Of a DNA stretch of 35,507 nucleotides, positions 3,010 to 11,137 are shown piece after piece. The DNA is from Candidatus Methanomethylicus oleisabuli (GTDB taxonomy: Archaea > Thermoproteota > Methanomethylicia > Methanomethylicales > Methanomethylicaceae), in contig MAGU01000037.1 of the NCBI GenBank assembly GCA_001717025.1, positions 585-36,091 of the forward strand. Direction: 5' to 3'. The position numbers and the translations under genes are program-made. Numbering within the stretch: position 1 is the first letter of the stretch; each line of letters begins with the position of its first letter. The notes under the pieces were generated by a model, which saw only the letters and a program-made list of their open reading frames with translations, did no database searches and was not told where the DNA came from.

Positions 3010-3148
3010 CCCGCCCTAGCTCAGTGGTAGAGCGCCCGGCTGTAGACCGATGGTCGCGCAGGGGAATTCGCCTTGGGCGGCACATGTCCTTGCGCCAGCC
3101 TGGGCAATTACCGGGTGGTCGCTGGTTCAAGTCCGGCGGGCGGGACCA
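3010..3148 (+). tRNA. tRNA-Tyr (GTA) with a 64-nt intron
   Basis: The acceptor CCCGCCC (3010-3016) pairs with GGGCGGG (3138-3144). The C1-G72 pair and discriminator A73 are the archaeal/eukaryotic tyrosine identity elements. CCA is encoded at 3146-3148. The D arm reads GCTCAGTGGTAGAGC, and the T arm is GCTGG-TTCAAGT-CCGGC with one G-T pair. The anticodon stem CCCGG (3035-3039) pairs with CCGGG (3111-3115) after removal of 3046-3109, giving the loop CTGTAGA and anticodon GTA at 3042-3044. The intron is at the canonical 37/38 site and should be removed by the splicing endonuclease and sealed by RtcB, which is encoded at 20448-21929. Confidence 0.95.
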
Positions 3149-3315: not shown

Positions 3316-3690
3316 TTGGGCAAGTTTGATATCCTTGAACATGAGCTTGTACCGGAGTTCCGGATACTCAACAGGGAGGAATACCAGGCGCTCCGGAAGG
3401 CCCTCGGAATAAGGAAGGAGGACCTTCCGTGGATAAGGAACAGCGACCCCGTATGCCTGCGCATTAAGGAGGCGCAGAAGAGCGCCCACTGCCCCAAATG
3501 CGGAGGCAAGCTCGTCGAGTCGGTAGAGGAGCGGGAGTTCAAGGGGGTACCAACCCAGAAGAGGGTCATGAAGTGCGAGAAGTGCGACTACTACGAGCCG
3601 GTCCTAGGCCCCGGGCAGATCCTTAAGATAACCCGGAATAGCGAGGTCGCAGGGCACGCGGTCGCCTTCAGGTACGTGGTTCCAGGGTGA
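3316..3690 (+). CDS. rpoH: RNA polymerase subunit H (RPB5 C-terminal homologue) with inserted zinc ribbon
   Basis: RpoH forms part of the jaw of archaeal RNA polymerase near downstream DNA. The N-terminal half is canonical (ILEHELVPEF, then LPWIRNSDPV), and the C-terminal strand LGPGQILKITRNSEVAGHAV matches the PGD-x-x-KI-x-R-x-S-x-x-AGxAV signature. Between them sits an insertion of about 45 residues absent from ordinary 75-85-residue RpoH. It carries CPKC (Cys59, Cys62) and CEKC (Cys87, Cys90), a treble-clef or ribbon-type zinc site. TTG at 3316 is preferred because GGGTGGT lies at 3303-3309 and the TATA box is at 3231; ATG at 3256 would add 20 non-conserved residues. rpoB follows with its ribosome binding site across this stop codon. 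I do not know a described precedent for the insertion. Confidence 0.88.
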   Translation: MGKFDILEHELVPEFRILNREEYQALRKALGIRKEDLPWIRNSDPVCLRIKEAQKSAHCPKCGGKLVESVEEREFKGVPTQKRVMKCEKCDYYEPVLGPGQILKITRNSEVAGHAVAFRYVVPG

Positions 3691-3695
3691 TTCTG

Positions 3696-6600
3696 ATGAG
3701 CGAGATTGCAATGGACGACCGGTGGGCGCTCATCGAGTCCTTCTTCAGGGAGAAGAACTTGGTGCGGCCGCACCTGGACTCATTCGACGACTTCATAAAG
3801 AACAAGCTTCAGGAGATCGTGGACGAGCAGGGCGTCATAGAGACCGACATACCCGGTCTCAAGATCAAGCTCGGCGCACTGACGATCGGTAAGCCGACCA
3901 TTCACGAGGCAGACGGCTCCGAGAAGGAGATCTTGCCCATGGAGGCTAGGCAGAGAAACCTGACCTACGCTGCGACCATGAAGCTCTCGATGGTGCCGGT
4001 CGTGGATGGCTACGAGGAGGACGCCATATCGGTCTACATCGGCAAGCTGCCAATCATGGTACGATCGTCTTACTGCGCCCTCGCAAACGCCACAAGGGCT
4101 GAGCTGATTAAGGCCGGCGAGGACCCCGCGGACCCCGGAGGCTACTTCATAGTCAACGGCTCCGAGAGGGTCGTGGTGATACAGGAGGACCTCGCCGTCA
4201 ACAGGATTTTGGTCGACAAGATGGAGGGCGCGTCGCCCGTCACGCACGTCGCGAAGGTCTTCTCTGCGACCTCCGGCTTCAGGGTGCCGGTCACCCTCGA
4301 GCGCATGAAGGACGGAAACCTCTCGGTCACGTTCCCGTCGATACCGGGCAGGGTCTCCCTCGCCATACTCATGAAGGCGCTGGGCGTCCCGTCGGACAAG
4401 GACCTGGTCGACTCCGTCTCAAGCGATCCCGTCATACAGAAGGCGCTCATTCCGACGCTCGAGAGCGGGATAGAGATCAACACCACCAGCGACGCGCTCG
4501 ACTACATCGGCAACAGGGTCGCCATAGGGCAGACGCAGGACTTCCGCATCCAGCGGGCGCTGCAGATACTCGACAAGTACCTCCTGCCGCACCTCGGCAT
4601 GGTGGAGGCCGACAGGAAGAAGAAGGCGCTCTTCCTGGGCCAGATGGCTGAGAAGCTAATAGAGCTCTCGATAGGGCGGAGGGCTCCCGACGACAAGGAC
4701 CACTACGCCAACAAGCGGCTCAAGCTCGCAGGCGACCTCCTAGCGAGCCTCTTCAGGGTCGCATTCAAGAGCTTCTGCAGGGACATGAAGTACCAGCTCG
4801 AGAGGGCAAGGAGCAGGAGCAGGCGCGTCTCGATAGAGACCCTCGTCAGGGCGGACGTCATAACCGAGCGGCTGAGGCACGCCCTCGCGACCGGCAACTG
4901 GGTCGGCGGAAAGGCGGGCGTGAGCCAGCTCCTCGACAGGACCAACTACCTGTCCACCATAGGTCACCTGAGGAGGATCATCTCCCCGCTCAGCAGGTCG
5001 CAGCCGCACTTTGAGGCAAGGGACCTCCACCCCACGCAGTGGGGCAGGCTCTGCCCGAGCGAGACGCCGGAGGGGCCCAACTGCGGCCTCGTCAAGAACC
5101 TGGCGCTCATGTCATTCATATCGGTCGGCATGGACGAGCCGCGGCTCGTCGAGGACCTCCTTTACGAGCTCAACATTGAGCCGATCGAGTCTGCAAGGAA
5201 GAAGAACATGACCGGCGCGAAGGTCATACTCAACGGCAGGCTGATAGGCATCCACGACCGTCCGGAGATGCTCGTCACCGAGGTCAAGAAGCATCGCCTG
5301 AGGAAGAAGTGGCACGAGGTAAACGTCGCCCACTACAAGCAGGGCGAGATCAACGAGGTCTACATAAACTGCGACGCCGGCAGGGTAAGGCGCCCGCTTA
5401 TAATCGTTGACGGCGGCTACCCGCTCCTCAACAAGGAGCAAATAGAGCGCCTGGTGGCTAACGAGTGGACGTGGAACGAGCTGATCAACCAGGGGGTCGT
5501 CGAGTACCTGGACGCCGAGGAGGAGGAGAACGCCTACATCGCCCTCGATTACAAGAACCTGGACAGGTCGAGGACCCACCTCGAGATAGTGCCGTCCACG
5601 ATACTCGGGATAAGCGCATCCATGATACCGTTCCTCGAGGCTAACCAGTCGCCCAGGAACACCTACGGGTCGGCCATGATCAAGCAGTCGCTAGGATTCT
5701 ACGCGGCCAACTTCACCAAGCGCCTCGACACGAGGGGGCACCTGCTGCACTACCCGCAGAGGCCGATGGTAAACACGAGGTCTGCCAAGACGCTCGATCT
5801 GGACCGGCGCCCAGCCGGGCAGAACTTCGTCGTGGCGATACTCTCCCACTCCGGCTACAACATCGAGGACGCCCTGATCATGAACAAGTCCTCGGTCGAG
5901 CGCGGTCTGGCGAGGTCATCCTTCTTCAGGTGCTACGAGACTGAGGAGCGCAGGTACCCCGGCGGGCAGGAGGACAAGATCGAGGTCCCCTCGCCGAACG
6001 TCAGGGGATACAGGACGCCCGAGTCCTACCAGTACCTTGGCGACGACGGGATAATCGAGCCCGAGTCCAGCCTGAATGGCGGCGACGTCCTGGTAGGCAA
6101 GACCAGCCCGCCGCGGTTCCTCGAGGAGTACAAAGAGTTCGAGCAGGCAGGGCCGCAGAGGAGGGAGACATCCGTCTCGATGAGGGCCGGCGAGGATGGC
6201 GTCGTCGACCTGGTGATAGTCACCGAGACCTCTGACGGCAACAAGCTCGTAAAGATACGCGTAAGGAACCAGAGGATACCGGAGCTGGGGGACAAGTTCG
6301 CCTCCAGGCACGGTCAGAAGGGGGTCATCGGGATGCTCGTCCCGCAGTACGACATGCCCTACACGGAGGATGGCGTCGTCCCGGACCTTATCATCAACCC
6401 GCACGCCATACCGTCGAGGATGACCCTTGGGCAGATGCTTGAGCTGCTAGGAGGCAAGGCATACGCCGCGTCTGGCAGGCCAATCGATGGGACCGCCTTC
6501 TGCGGCGACAGCGAGAAGACGATGCGGGACCTGCTCAAGGCGAGCGGCCTCAAGCCGAGCGGAAAGGAGGTGCTCTACGACGGACGGACCGGCAGGATGC

Positions 6601-7025
6601 TCGAGGCAGACGTCTATATAGGCATAGCCTACTACCTAAAGCTCCACCACATGGTGGCAGACAAGATGCACGCAAGGGCGCGTGGGCCGGTCCAGATCCT
6701 CACGCGGCAGCCTACCGAAGGGCGCGCAAGGGAGGGCGGTTTGCGCTTCGGAGAGATGGAGCGCGACTGCCTCGTCGGGCACGGCGCGGCGATGCTGCTG
6801 AAGGAGCGCCTCCTCGAGGAGTCAGACAGGACCGTCGTCAACATCTGCGAGGACTGCGGCCTGATCTCTTACTACGACCGTACGAAGGACAAGAACTTCT
6901 GCCCCATATGCGGCGAGAAGGCGAAGACGACCGCCGTGGTGATGTCCTACGCCTTCAAGCTGCTGCTGCAGGAGCTCATGAGCCTTGGCATCGCGCCGAG
7001 GCTGAAGCTACAGGAGAGGGTGTAA
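3696..7025 (+). CDS. rpoB: DNA-directed RNA polymerase subunit B (unsplit)
   Basis: The second-largest catalytic subunit, 1109 residues, encoded in one frame rather than as separate B'' and B' genes. ATG at 3696 is chosen because GGGTGATT (3685-3692) sits just before it; the GTG at 3687 overlaps that site. Diagnostic segments are [15 protein letters not shown] (around residue 455), [15 protein letters not shown] (about 719-733), [15 protein letters not shown] (about 865-879), the wall and hybrid-binding region, and a C-terminal zinc site with Cys1051, Cys1054, Cys1069 and Cys1072. It is the second gene of the rpoH-B-A1-A2 operon, with four bases before the TTG of rpoA1. No intein or frameshift is seen. 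Confidence 0.98.
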
Positions 7026-7029
7026 AGAG

Positions 7030-9681
7030 TTGTCGTTGTCAGAACTCGCAAAATCGGTACATGCTATAAAGTTCGGGCTGCTATCGCCTGAGGACATCCG
7101 GAAGATGTCCGTGGTGAACATCAAGGCTGCTGACACATACGATGAGGACGGCGTCCCGATAGAGACGGGGCTTATGGACCGAAAGCTTGGCACGATCGAG
7201 CCAGGACAGAGGTGCCAGACGTGCGGCAACCGCGTCGGGCAGTGCCCTGGGCACTTCGGCCACATCGAGCTCGCCCGACCGGTCGTCCACCCCGGGTTCG
7301 CAAAGCTCATCTATCTCATGCTGAGGGCGACCTGCTGGAACTGCGGCAGGCTCCTCCTCTCGGAGGAGGACTATCGCAAGTACTCTCTCAGGATGGTGAA
7401 GTACAAGAAGAAGTGGCCGCAGTTCAGGTTCAAGCTCTCTGACCAGATCGTCAAGAAGGCTATCAAGATAAACGAGTGCCCATACTGCCACGAGGGGCAG
7501 TTCAAGATAAAGTTCGAGAAGCCGACAGGCTACTCCGAGGAGCGCAAGGAGGGCCCAAAGAGGATATACTCCAACGAGATAAGGAGCCGCCTGGAGCGCA
7601 TAACCGACGCCGACGCCGCTCTCATTGGGCTAGACCCTTCCCTGGCAAGGCCGGAGTGGATGCTCCTGACCGTGCTGCCGGTGCCGCCGTCAACGGTACG
7701 TCCGTCGATCACCCTCGAGTCGGGCGTCAGGTCCGAGGACGACCTCACGCACAAGCTCGTGGACATCATCAGGATCAACGAGCGGCTGAGCGAGAACATC
7801 GACGCCGGCGCCCCCCAGCTCATCATAGAAGACCTTTGGGAGTTGCTGCAGTACCACGTGACCACTTACTTCGACAACGAGACCTCCGGCATACCCCCCG
7901 CAAGGCACAGGTCCGGCAGGCCGCTCAGGACGATCGCGCAGAGGCTCAAGGGCAAGGAGGGCAGGTTCAGGTCAAACCTATCCGGCAAGCGCGTCGACTT
8001 CTCTGCGAGGACCGTGATCTCGCCAGACCCAATAATCAGCATGAACGAGGTCGGCGTCCCGGTGGAGATCGCCAAGCAGCTGACCATCCCTGAGCGGATC
8101 AACAGATACAACCTTGAGGAGATGAAGGCGGTGATCGCCAACGGTCCCGACGACCACCCTGGCGCGAACTACATAATCCGTCCTGACGGCAGGAGGATAG
8201 ACCTCCGGTTCCCAAAGGATCGCAAGGTCATCGCCGACGCGGTCGACGTCGGCTACATCGTGGAGCGGCACCTCAAGGACGGGGACGTGGTCCTCTTCAA
8301 CAGGCAGCCCTCGCTACACAGGATGTCGATAATGGCTCACAAGGTCCGGGTCCTGCCGTACAAGACCTTCAGGCTCAACCTCTGCGTCTGCCCTCCGTAC
8401 AACGCCGACTTCGACGGGGACGAGATGAACCTCCACGTGCCACAGAGCGAGGAGGCGAGGGCGGAGGCGCTCGTGCTCATGCTCGTGCAGGAGCAGATAC
8501 TCTCGCCGAGGTATGGCGGGCCTATCATGGGCGGGATACAGGACTACATCTCCGGGGCATACATGCTCACTCGCAAGAGCACCAAGCTATCAAGGGCTGA
8601 CGCCTCGCAGCTCCTGACCAGCGCTGGCTACAGAGGGGAGCTGCCGCCGCCCGCCTCCACGTCCCCCGAGTACTGGACCGGCAAGCAGCTGGCAAGCCTC
8701 TTCTTCCCCAAGGGCTTCAACTACACGCTCAAGTCAAACATATGCCAGAAGTGCGATGTCTGCAAGCAGGAGGACTGCGAGAACGACGCCTACGTCGTCA
8801 TAAAGGACGGCAAGCTGGTCGCAGGCGTCATCGACAAGAAGTCGATCGGCGCGCAGCAGCCCGAGTCAGTCCTCCACAGGCTGGTTAAGGACTACGGGAC
8901 GGGCATGGGCAGTTACTACATCGACAATGCGTTCAAGCTCTTCCTAGCATTCATAGACAGCCGAGGGCTAACGATAGGGCTCGACGACGAGGAGCTCCCG
9001 GAGAGCGGGCGTCTGAAGGTCAAGGCTGACATACAGCACGCAGAGGAGGAGGTCGCCAAGAACATCAACGCCTACCATGAGGGGCTGCTCGAGCGGTTGC
9101 CGGGCAGGACGCTCGAGGAGACGCTCGAGACGCAGATCATGCAGATATTGGAGAATGCCAGGGAGGAGTCGGGCAAGACCGCGAAGAAGTACCTCAGGGA
9201 GGACAACACCGCGCTGCTTATGGCCAACACCGGCGCAAGGGGCAGCCTCATGAACCTCGCGCACATGGTCGCATGCGTCGGGCAGCAGGCGGTCCGTGGG
9301 GAGCGGATCTCGAGGGGTTACCAGAACCGTACGCTACCGCATTTCAAGCCGGGCGACCTGGGCGCAGAGGCGCACGGATTCGTTTACAGCAGCTACAAGG
9401 ACAAGCTCAACCCCATAGAGTTCTTCTTCCACGCTATGGGAGGCAGGGAGGGGCTAGTCGACACAGCCGTGAGGACGAGCCAGAGCGGCTACATGCAGCG
9501 CAGGCTCATCAATGCCCTGCAGGACATAAGGGTTGAGTACGACTGGACGGTGAGGGCGACCGACGGCTCGATCATCCAGTACATATACGGCGATGATGGC
9601 ATAGACCCTGCCAAGAGCGACCACGGCGCCGCCGTGAACATCGACAAGATAATCGAGAGGGTGAGTGTAGGAGGAAAGTGA
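7030..9681 (+). CDS. rpoA1: DNA-directed RNA polymerase subunit A' (A1)
   Basis: The N-terminal part of the largest subunit, 883 residues, in normal archaeal size range. TTG at 7030 is used because GAGGGTG at 7016-7022 gives good spacing; TTG at 7036 is possible. [13 protein letters not shown] is the canonical start of the clamp. It is followed by zinc motifs [17 protein letters not shown] and CWNCG/CPYC, the [20 protein letters not shown] lid region, and the catalytic [12 protein letters not shown] at about residues 458-469, whose three Asp bind Mg. A second Cys cluster ([12 protein letters not shown]) lies in the pore/funnel region. The gene ends after the bridge-helix region, and the remainder is supplied by rpoA2, which starts one base downstream of the stop. 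Confidence 0.98.
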
Positions 9682-9682
9682 G

Positions 9683-11137
9683 ATGACCAAGAGACAGACC
9701 GCCCATGCGGAAGCAGACGATGCTGGGGCAGACGTCGCCGCGGCGGGAGCCAAGACCGAGAAGCCAGCCAAGACCGTAGTGGCATCCAAGCGCAGGGTCA
9801 AGGAGGCGGCATCAGCATCAGCATCAGCCAAGCCGAATGCACCCAAAAATGCCTCGCCATCCAGGGCAAAGAAACCCAAGGCAGCGGGTGCAACAGGCGG
9901 CGAGGCGCCTGTACCGCTTGAGCCGACGCCGGATCTGGGGTTGGCGCAGGGGCGGGCGAGCAAGGCTCGCCAGCCGGATATGCCGCTCGTGGACGAGGTG
10001 CTGGCGAGGCACGACCGGCGCCTGCCCGAGATGCTCGTTAGCCAGCTCAAGGCAAAGCTGGCGCCGCTAAAGGAGAAGCTCAACGAGGAGCAGATGGTGA
10101 CAGTAGTGGAGGAGACCTACTCCTCCTACATCAAGGCCCTCATCGAGCCGGGCGAGGCTGCGGGAACGGTGGCCGCCCAGTCCGTCGGCGAGCCAGGCAC
10201 ACAGATGACGCTGAGGACCTTCCACTACGCCGGCGTGAGGGAGCTGAACGTAACCTTGGGCCTTCCGAGGCTTATCGAGATTGTGGACGCGCGTAGGCTA
10301 CCGTCGACCCCAACCATGACTATATACCTCGACGACGAGCACAAGCGCGACCTAACCAAAGCCAAGGACATAGCTTCCAACATCGAGACCGTCACGGTGG
10401 AGAACGTCGCGAAGAGCATAGGCTACGAGATGCTCAACAACTTCACCATAGAAGTCGATGCCGAGATGTGCGAGGACAAGCTGATTGACATCAACTACAT
10501 CGCCAAGTCGATCGAGAAGCTCAAGATACCCGGCAAGGTCTCCGTCGAAGGGAACACCATCACGGTCGAACCGGAGACGACCGACCGCGCCAAGATAAAG
10601 CGTATCAGGGAGCGGATCATGGACCTGCGCCTGAAGGGGCTGAAGGGCATCAAGAGGGTCGTGATCGAGAAGAAGGGCGACGAATACCTTCTCAGGACCG
10701 ACGGCTCTAACCTGGCGCAGGTGATCGAGAACGTCAAAGGCATCGACAGGAGGAAGGTCTACACGAATAACATCTCCGAGATCGCCGAGGTCCTAGGCAT
10801 AGAGGCCGCGAGGAGCGCGATCATCCGTGAGGCGTTCGAGGTCCTAGACCAGCAGGGACTGGACGTGGACGTCAGGCATGTGATCCTTATAGCCGACCTC
10901 ATGACCTCCACTGGAAAGATCAGGCAGATCGGCAGGCACGGCGTGAGCGGTGAGAAGTCGAGCGTCCTAGCAAGGGCAGCCTTCGAGGTGACCGTAAAGC
11001 ATTTATTGGATGCGGCTTCTCATGGTGAGGAGGACCGCTTGGAGGGAGTTACGGAGAACGTGATTGTCGGTCAGCCAATCCCGCTGGGCACCGGAATAGT
11101 CGAATTGTTTATGAGGTTCTCTAAAGAAGGTACATGA
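9683..11137 (+). CDS. rpoA2: DNA-directed RNA polymerase subunit A'' (A2) with long N-terminal extension
   Basis: The C-terminal part of the largest subunit, 484 residues, about 95 more than most A'' subunits. The recognisable core starts near residue 100 ([16 protein letters not shown]). It includes [20 protein letters not shown] (about 164-183), which contains the trigger loop, and the cleft/jaw region through [15 protein letters not shown] and [11 protein letters not shown]. Residues 1-99 are low complexity, rich in Ala, Lys, Pro and Ser (for example [20 protein letters not shown]), and so probably disordered and basic. The ATG at 9683 has an AGGAGG site upstream and lies one base after the rpoA1 stop, so the extension is very likely translated. 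It resembles the tail on L29 in this genome more than any RNAP element I know. Confidence 0.96.
9809..9828 (+). repeat. Short tandem hexamer repeat in rpoA2
   Basis: Three copies of GCATCA plus two bases encode alternating Ala-Ser in the low-complexity N-terminal extension of RpoA2. Slippage at such repeats is a plausible way for the extension to change length. Confidence 0.6.

Follow-up and report, generated by a model that had tools for sequence, protein, structure and literature searches.

A predicted zinc ribbon inserted within RNA polymerase subunit RpoH/Rpo5 in Candidatus Methanomethylicus

Few small parts of the archaeal RNA polymerase are as constrained as subunit H (RpoH, or Rpo5), and the locus described here raises the question of how a segment with two CxxC knuckles came to lie inside it and what that segment might do. 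The window is a stretch of 35,507 nucleotides from Candidatus Methanomethylicus oleisabuli (contig MAGU01000037.1), and it encodes rpoH (rpo5) on the forward strand at 3316-3690 as a protein of 124 residues with a TTG start.

Architecture of the rpoH gene

The translation of the 3316-3690 frame is free of internal stops, and the TTG start is supported by relatives in which the frame begins just a single codon ahead of the shared LGKF/MVKF start. The gene is single-copy in its genome and lies in an operon of the order rpoH, rpoB, rpoA1, rpoA2; the open reading frame list and BLASTP place rpoB (rpo2) at 3696-7025, rpoA1 (rpo1N) at 7030-9681 and rpoA2 (rpo1C), which encodes the partner subunit of RpoH, at 9683-11137, all on the forward strand. 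The position before rpoB that the first-pass annotation had called normal is thereby confirmed. The rpoA2 product carries an Ala/Lys/Pro-rich low-complexity N-terminal extension of ~100 residues that is common to genomes G005, G013, G015 and G002 and much shorter in G019. Just upstream of rpoH, at 3010-3148, a tRNA-Tyr(GTA)-like gene with an intron was read by eye; it was not reported by ARAGORN in bacterial mode, and a similar tRNA-like sequence also lies upstream of rpoH in G002.

The protein matches the Pfam family RNA_pol_Rpb5_C (PF01191) over its cut-off at 6.3e-21, as two stretches, and the NCBIfam archaeal RpoH equivalog PRK09570 at 5.8e-24 (83.7 bits against a cut-off of 83). In a six-frame search with the Rpb5_C profile, profile positions 1-47 and 49-73 correspond to the two RpoH halves: an N-terminal half of residues 1-50, running to SDPVCLRI (3316-3465), and a C-terminal half of residues 99-124 plus the stop, PGQILKITR...VVPG (3610-3690). 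Alignment with seven RpoH sequences of the order opens a gap of exactly 45 columns from I-x-A-x to PG, where the three residues of the usual GAK turn are replaced by 48 (net +45). The first-pass annotation had described about 45 extra residues with CPKC and CEKC inside RpoH, and both the split Pfam match and the alignment bear this out; the internal site stands, and its limits need the minor correction that residues 51-98 (3466-3609) are the better bounds. The insert has the motif CPKC-x24-CEKC, with the first knuckle at residues 59-62 (3490-3501) and the second at residues 87-90 (3574-3585).

Distribution and selection

The same insert is present at the same point in a second genome of the genus, Ca. 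Methanomethylicus mesodigestus V1 (MAGS01000088.1; G005, locus L031), with 94% identity over 48 residues and all four cysteines, and hence both knuckles, kept. The two carriers share 92% identity over the whole RpoH protein at a synonymous divergence of ~0.35-0.65, and their rpoB products are 95% identical, compared with 84% to a third member of the genus, G006 (first 221 residues), and ~82% to other genera. Changes in the insert between the carriers number 1, 2 and 8 at the first, second and third codon positions, and only 3 of 46 residues are changed at a dS of 0.35, with residues of the hairpin conserved and not the cysteines alone. The dN/dS ratio of ~0.09 in the insert (0.032/0.353) is close to the 0.095 of the RpoH halves, which indicates that the insert is translated and constrained; judged by codon comparison, purifying selection is equal on the two.

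G006 possesses a normal 79-residue RpoH without the insert, which is also absent from all other members of the order with a detected rpoH; in G007 (59% complete), G011 and G001 rpoH was not detected, and these genomes are therefore uninformative. At class level, one uninterrupted match is present in 34 of the 36 genomes with rpoH. Across the phylum sample, rpoH was matched in 377 of 398 Thermoproteota genomes, and the best matches all lie at E = 2.7e-20 or better save those of the two carriers, a fragment (G370) and a frameshifted gene (G397). An rpoH with the insert scores 1e-12, so matches at 2.7e-20 are out of its reach, and by best rpoH match per genome the insert was not found in about 370 other Thermoproteota genomes. 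The turn is otherwise length-invariant, at 219 nt per 73 profile positions in the fully matched Thermoproteota RpoH among the matches listed. Two split cases considered as further RpoH insertions (G397 and G040:C11) join without extra sequence and were rejected as frameshifted or degraded copies. Since G006 and the other relatives lack the insert, the insertion arose, on the Thermoproteota sampled, within the genus Methanomethylicus and later than the divergence from G006.

The source of the insert was sought within and beyond the genome. No good second copy was found in the genome (best E 0.06 or worse), so duplication from elsewhere in it was rejected, and neither a viral nor a plasmid source was found. 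In an order-wide search nothing came up beyond weak ribbons, among them Elf1 and a protein named here Mut7-C-like.

Predicted fold and possible role of the ribbon

Full-length RpoH was modelled with AlphaFold2 from a shallow alignment of 8 sequences, 2 of which carry the insert, and gave a mean pLDDT of 82.6, with insert blocks at ~80-92. Rpo5 elements E14-17, H20-30, E39-41 and H45-56 precede the ribbon strands E65-75, E78-87 and E93-95, and Rpo5 elements E102-109 and E113-122 follow; the first two ribbon strands form a long beta hairpin (3508-3576), which is predicted in the full protein and in the insert alone. A Foldseek search with the model returned archaeal Rpo5 chains first (7oqy_H, 6e-7), with target-normalised TM scores of 0.75-0.79 for the leading archaeal Rpo5 matches. 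The insert modelled alone gave the same three-stranded ribbon at a pLDDT of ~90, and sequence and model together place two CxxC knuckles on a beta hairpin, the arrangement of a zinc ribbon. The confidently predicted fold is that of an intact RpoH with a separate three-stranded zinc-ribbon-like hairpin, and the four cysteines in this predicted fold suggest that one Zn would be bound. A zinc-ribbon profile search, proposed at first pass, did not return any curated Pfam family above cut-off for the insert (best 0.0025). The claim that this is an internal insertion rather than a terminal fusion is upheld by the split profile match (1-47/49-73), the second genome, purifying selection and the predicted fold.

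These results are consistent with a genuine, expressed Rpo5/RpoH variant with an intact core, in which the ribbon serves as a Zn-binding auxiliary contact module at the Rpo5 surface, a reading to which we would give roughly an even chance. A zinc-ribbon module would have been inserted within Methanomethylicus into the turn, otherwise constant in length, that links the DPV helix to the PGD strand; the subunit is expected to assemble normally, because both RpoH halves keep their conserved residues, and the ribbon would stand out from the surface of Rpo5 at the lower jaw, next to the Rpo6/Rpo1C contact. A peripheral contact module is suggested by what the literature places around Rpo5. In S. shibatae, RpoH R64 is reported to form a salt bridge with RpoK D12 (PMC3906176), and by alignment R64 falls in the strand right after the insert-bearing turn. 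In Sulfolobales, Rpo13 sits in the groove between Rpo5 and the clamp head, which in eukaryotes is partly taken up by the jaw (PMC2675907), RpoH lies close to downstream DNA and is important for open complex formation (PMC6690254), and an interaction of Rpo5 with TFE has been reported in some archaea (PMC13257274).

The likeliest contact would be a protein, be it TFE, some elongation factor or a regulator specific to the lineage, and the alternative contact would be the downstream duplex DNA. Counted from the sequence, the insert is roughly charge-balanced (~10 basic and 8 acidic residues plus Cys4-Zn), which lends no special support to DNA binding and makes a protein partner appear somewhat more likely. 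Genes for TFS, TFE, Elf1 and Rpo6 are present in both carriers, and the insert was thus rejected as a replacement for any of these as a lost factor; retention of TFS, TFE and Elf1 suggests instead that the ribbon adds to them. No compensating change was seen in Rpo6, which has its ordinary form of 85-87 residues.

A serious but less probable alternative is that the insertion, specific to this lineage, is neutral or nearly so: the folded ribbon would sit in a surface turn that tolerates it, have no dedicated partner and be kept only against misfolding. The insert is confined to two close species, and no factor with which it might be paired is lost or altered, which fits this explanation, but the turn, being length-invariant among the matches listed, is not obviously a tolerant site, and conservation of hairpin residues besides the cysteines also argues against it. 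As for the contact module, it may more specifically be a built-in regulatory module peculiar to Methanomethylicus, gripping downstream DNA or docking an initiation or elongation factor at the lower jaw as an independent counterpart of the Rpb5 jaw and Rpo13; this version is put forward tentatively.

It is unlikely that the ribbon derives from or mimics one of the Elf1 or Rpb9/A12.2/TFS type, doubling that ribbon's function on the side of the downstream DNA. With a home-made Elf1 profile of the order, the insert reached 15.7 bits, more than any of 500 Cys-fixed shuffles, and was the best non-Elf1 match among the ribbons of the fetched loci (true Elf1 scored 62-76 bits); ribbons of Rpb9 and Pol I A12.2 were also among its Foldseek matches (TM ~0.46-0.49). 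However, the Elf1 match has an E of about 0.02 per genome, which is not significant as homology, Elf1 (PF05129) is absent from the best 25 Pfam matches of the insert, and its PDB neighbours are weak, with E values of 0.5-0.7 for Rpb9 and A12.2 and 0.16 for large serine recombinase ribbons. The TFS/TFIIS ribbon (PF01096) scored 7.2 bits, a value reached by 17 of 500 shuffles, and the catalytic DE pair of TFS ribbons is absent from the hairpin tip. That the genome still encodes Elf1 and TFS, and that the CPxCGGK pattern is common to generic ribbons, also count against such an origin. At the level of profiles, the similarity to Elf1 is a lead, not homology.

Removal of the 135 nt before or after translation, by an archaeal splicing-endonuclease intron or by protein splicing, would leave an ordinary mature subunit, and excising the segment does nearly give back a normal RpoH. 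This is very improbable given the codon-level purifying selection with its third-position bias, the retained zinc-knuckle pairs, a segment fold of no unusual stability (z = -0.85) and a length far too short for an intein. An assembly or binning artefact, conceivable in that both genomes are MAG-type with many contigs, is scarcely credible and the read or assembly error considered at first pass is already refuted, because two separate assemblies at species-level distance (~0.5 synonymous divergence) carry the insert, each in a normal operon.

Comparison with other polymerase subunits

Archaeal RpoH is said to be without a jaw (PMC2675907, PMC6690254, PMC3906176). Many rpoH genes of other Thermoproteota families (f10, f19, f28, f32, f39 and others) have open frames of 180-209 aa and encode an N-terminal domain of ~110 residues; examples from G288, G126, G323 and G070 lie at L069:1102-1728, in L070 (minus strand), at L071:1138-1725 and at L072:1135-1719. 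The domain matches Pfam Mrr_cat or NA-iREase1 at 1e-9 to 1e-10 in two of three proteins. A profile of three long RpoH matched plant Rpb5 at 1.4e-31 over most of its length (query 29-180 to chain 51-205); searched on its own, the N-terminal part matched no PDB chains other than those of Rpb5 (best 8e-4). On these profile matches, the REase-like N-terminal domain is a homologue of the eukaryotic Rpb5 jaw, and a jaw-like domain in Thermoproteota RpoH is potentially more important than the zinc-ribbon insert. A second, frame-split rpoH copy (L081/L085, G040:C11:326693-326910) accompanies the jaw-bearing one in G040, and G118 (C45, C58) and G070 (C48, C58) each have two rpoH genes.

The insert is a lineage-specific add-on of Methanomethylicus, seen in two close relatives within a methanogen lineage of archaea, to the normally invariant RpoH/Rpo5 of the core enzyme. 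No description of a zinc ribbon inside RpoH was found in the open-licence literature searched, in agreement with the first-pass view of the architecture as undescribed. The selected ribbon shows that, within the lifetime of a genus, small assembly subunits can still gain new modules at their surface, and it provides a defined deletion for testing contacts near the Rpo5 platform.

The window RpoH resembles archaeal RpoH/Rpo5 of S. acidocaldarius (7ok0_H), S. shibatae (2waq_H) and M. thermautotrophicus (1eik) in both fold halves, in conserved residues and in gene position before rpoB, whereas known archaeal forms are ~75-85 residues long with a short turn and the window RpoH has a 48-residue ribbon in place of 3 residues. 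Elf1, Rpb9/A12.2/TFS and large serine recombinase ribbons share the C-x2-C-x(about 24)-C-x2-C beta ribbon and weak profile or fold similarity with the insert, but they do not lie inside Rpo5 and show no significant similarity. Bacterial beta/beta' insertions (BEAN/HABAS, Si3; PMC11515920, PMC10802570) are likewise domains in a core RNA polymerase subunit of one lineage, but lie in the large subunits of bacteria and have different folds. The role of the ribbon would be analogous to those of other lineage-specific additions near Rpo5, namely Sulfolobales Rpo13 and the eukaryotic Rpb5 jaw. Rpo13, too, is a module of one lineage that lies next to Rpo5 and close to downstream DNA (PMC2675907), but it is a separate helix-turn-helix protein without zinc or sequence relation to the ribbon. 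Eukaryotic Rpb5 (RPABC1) has the C-terminal assembly domain in common with the window RpoH, whereas its addition is an N-terminal jaw and that of the window RpoH is an internal zinc ribbon.
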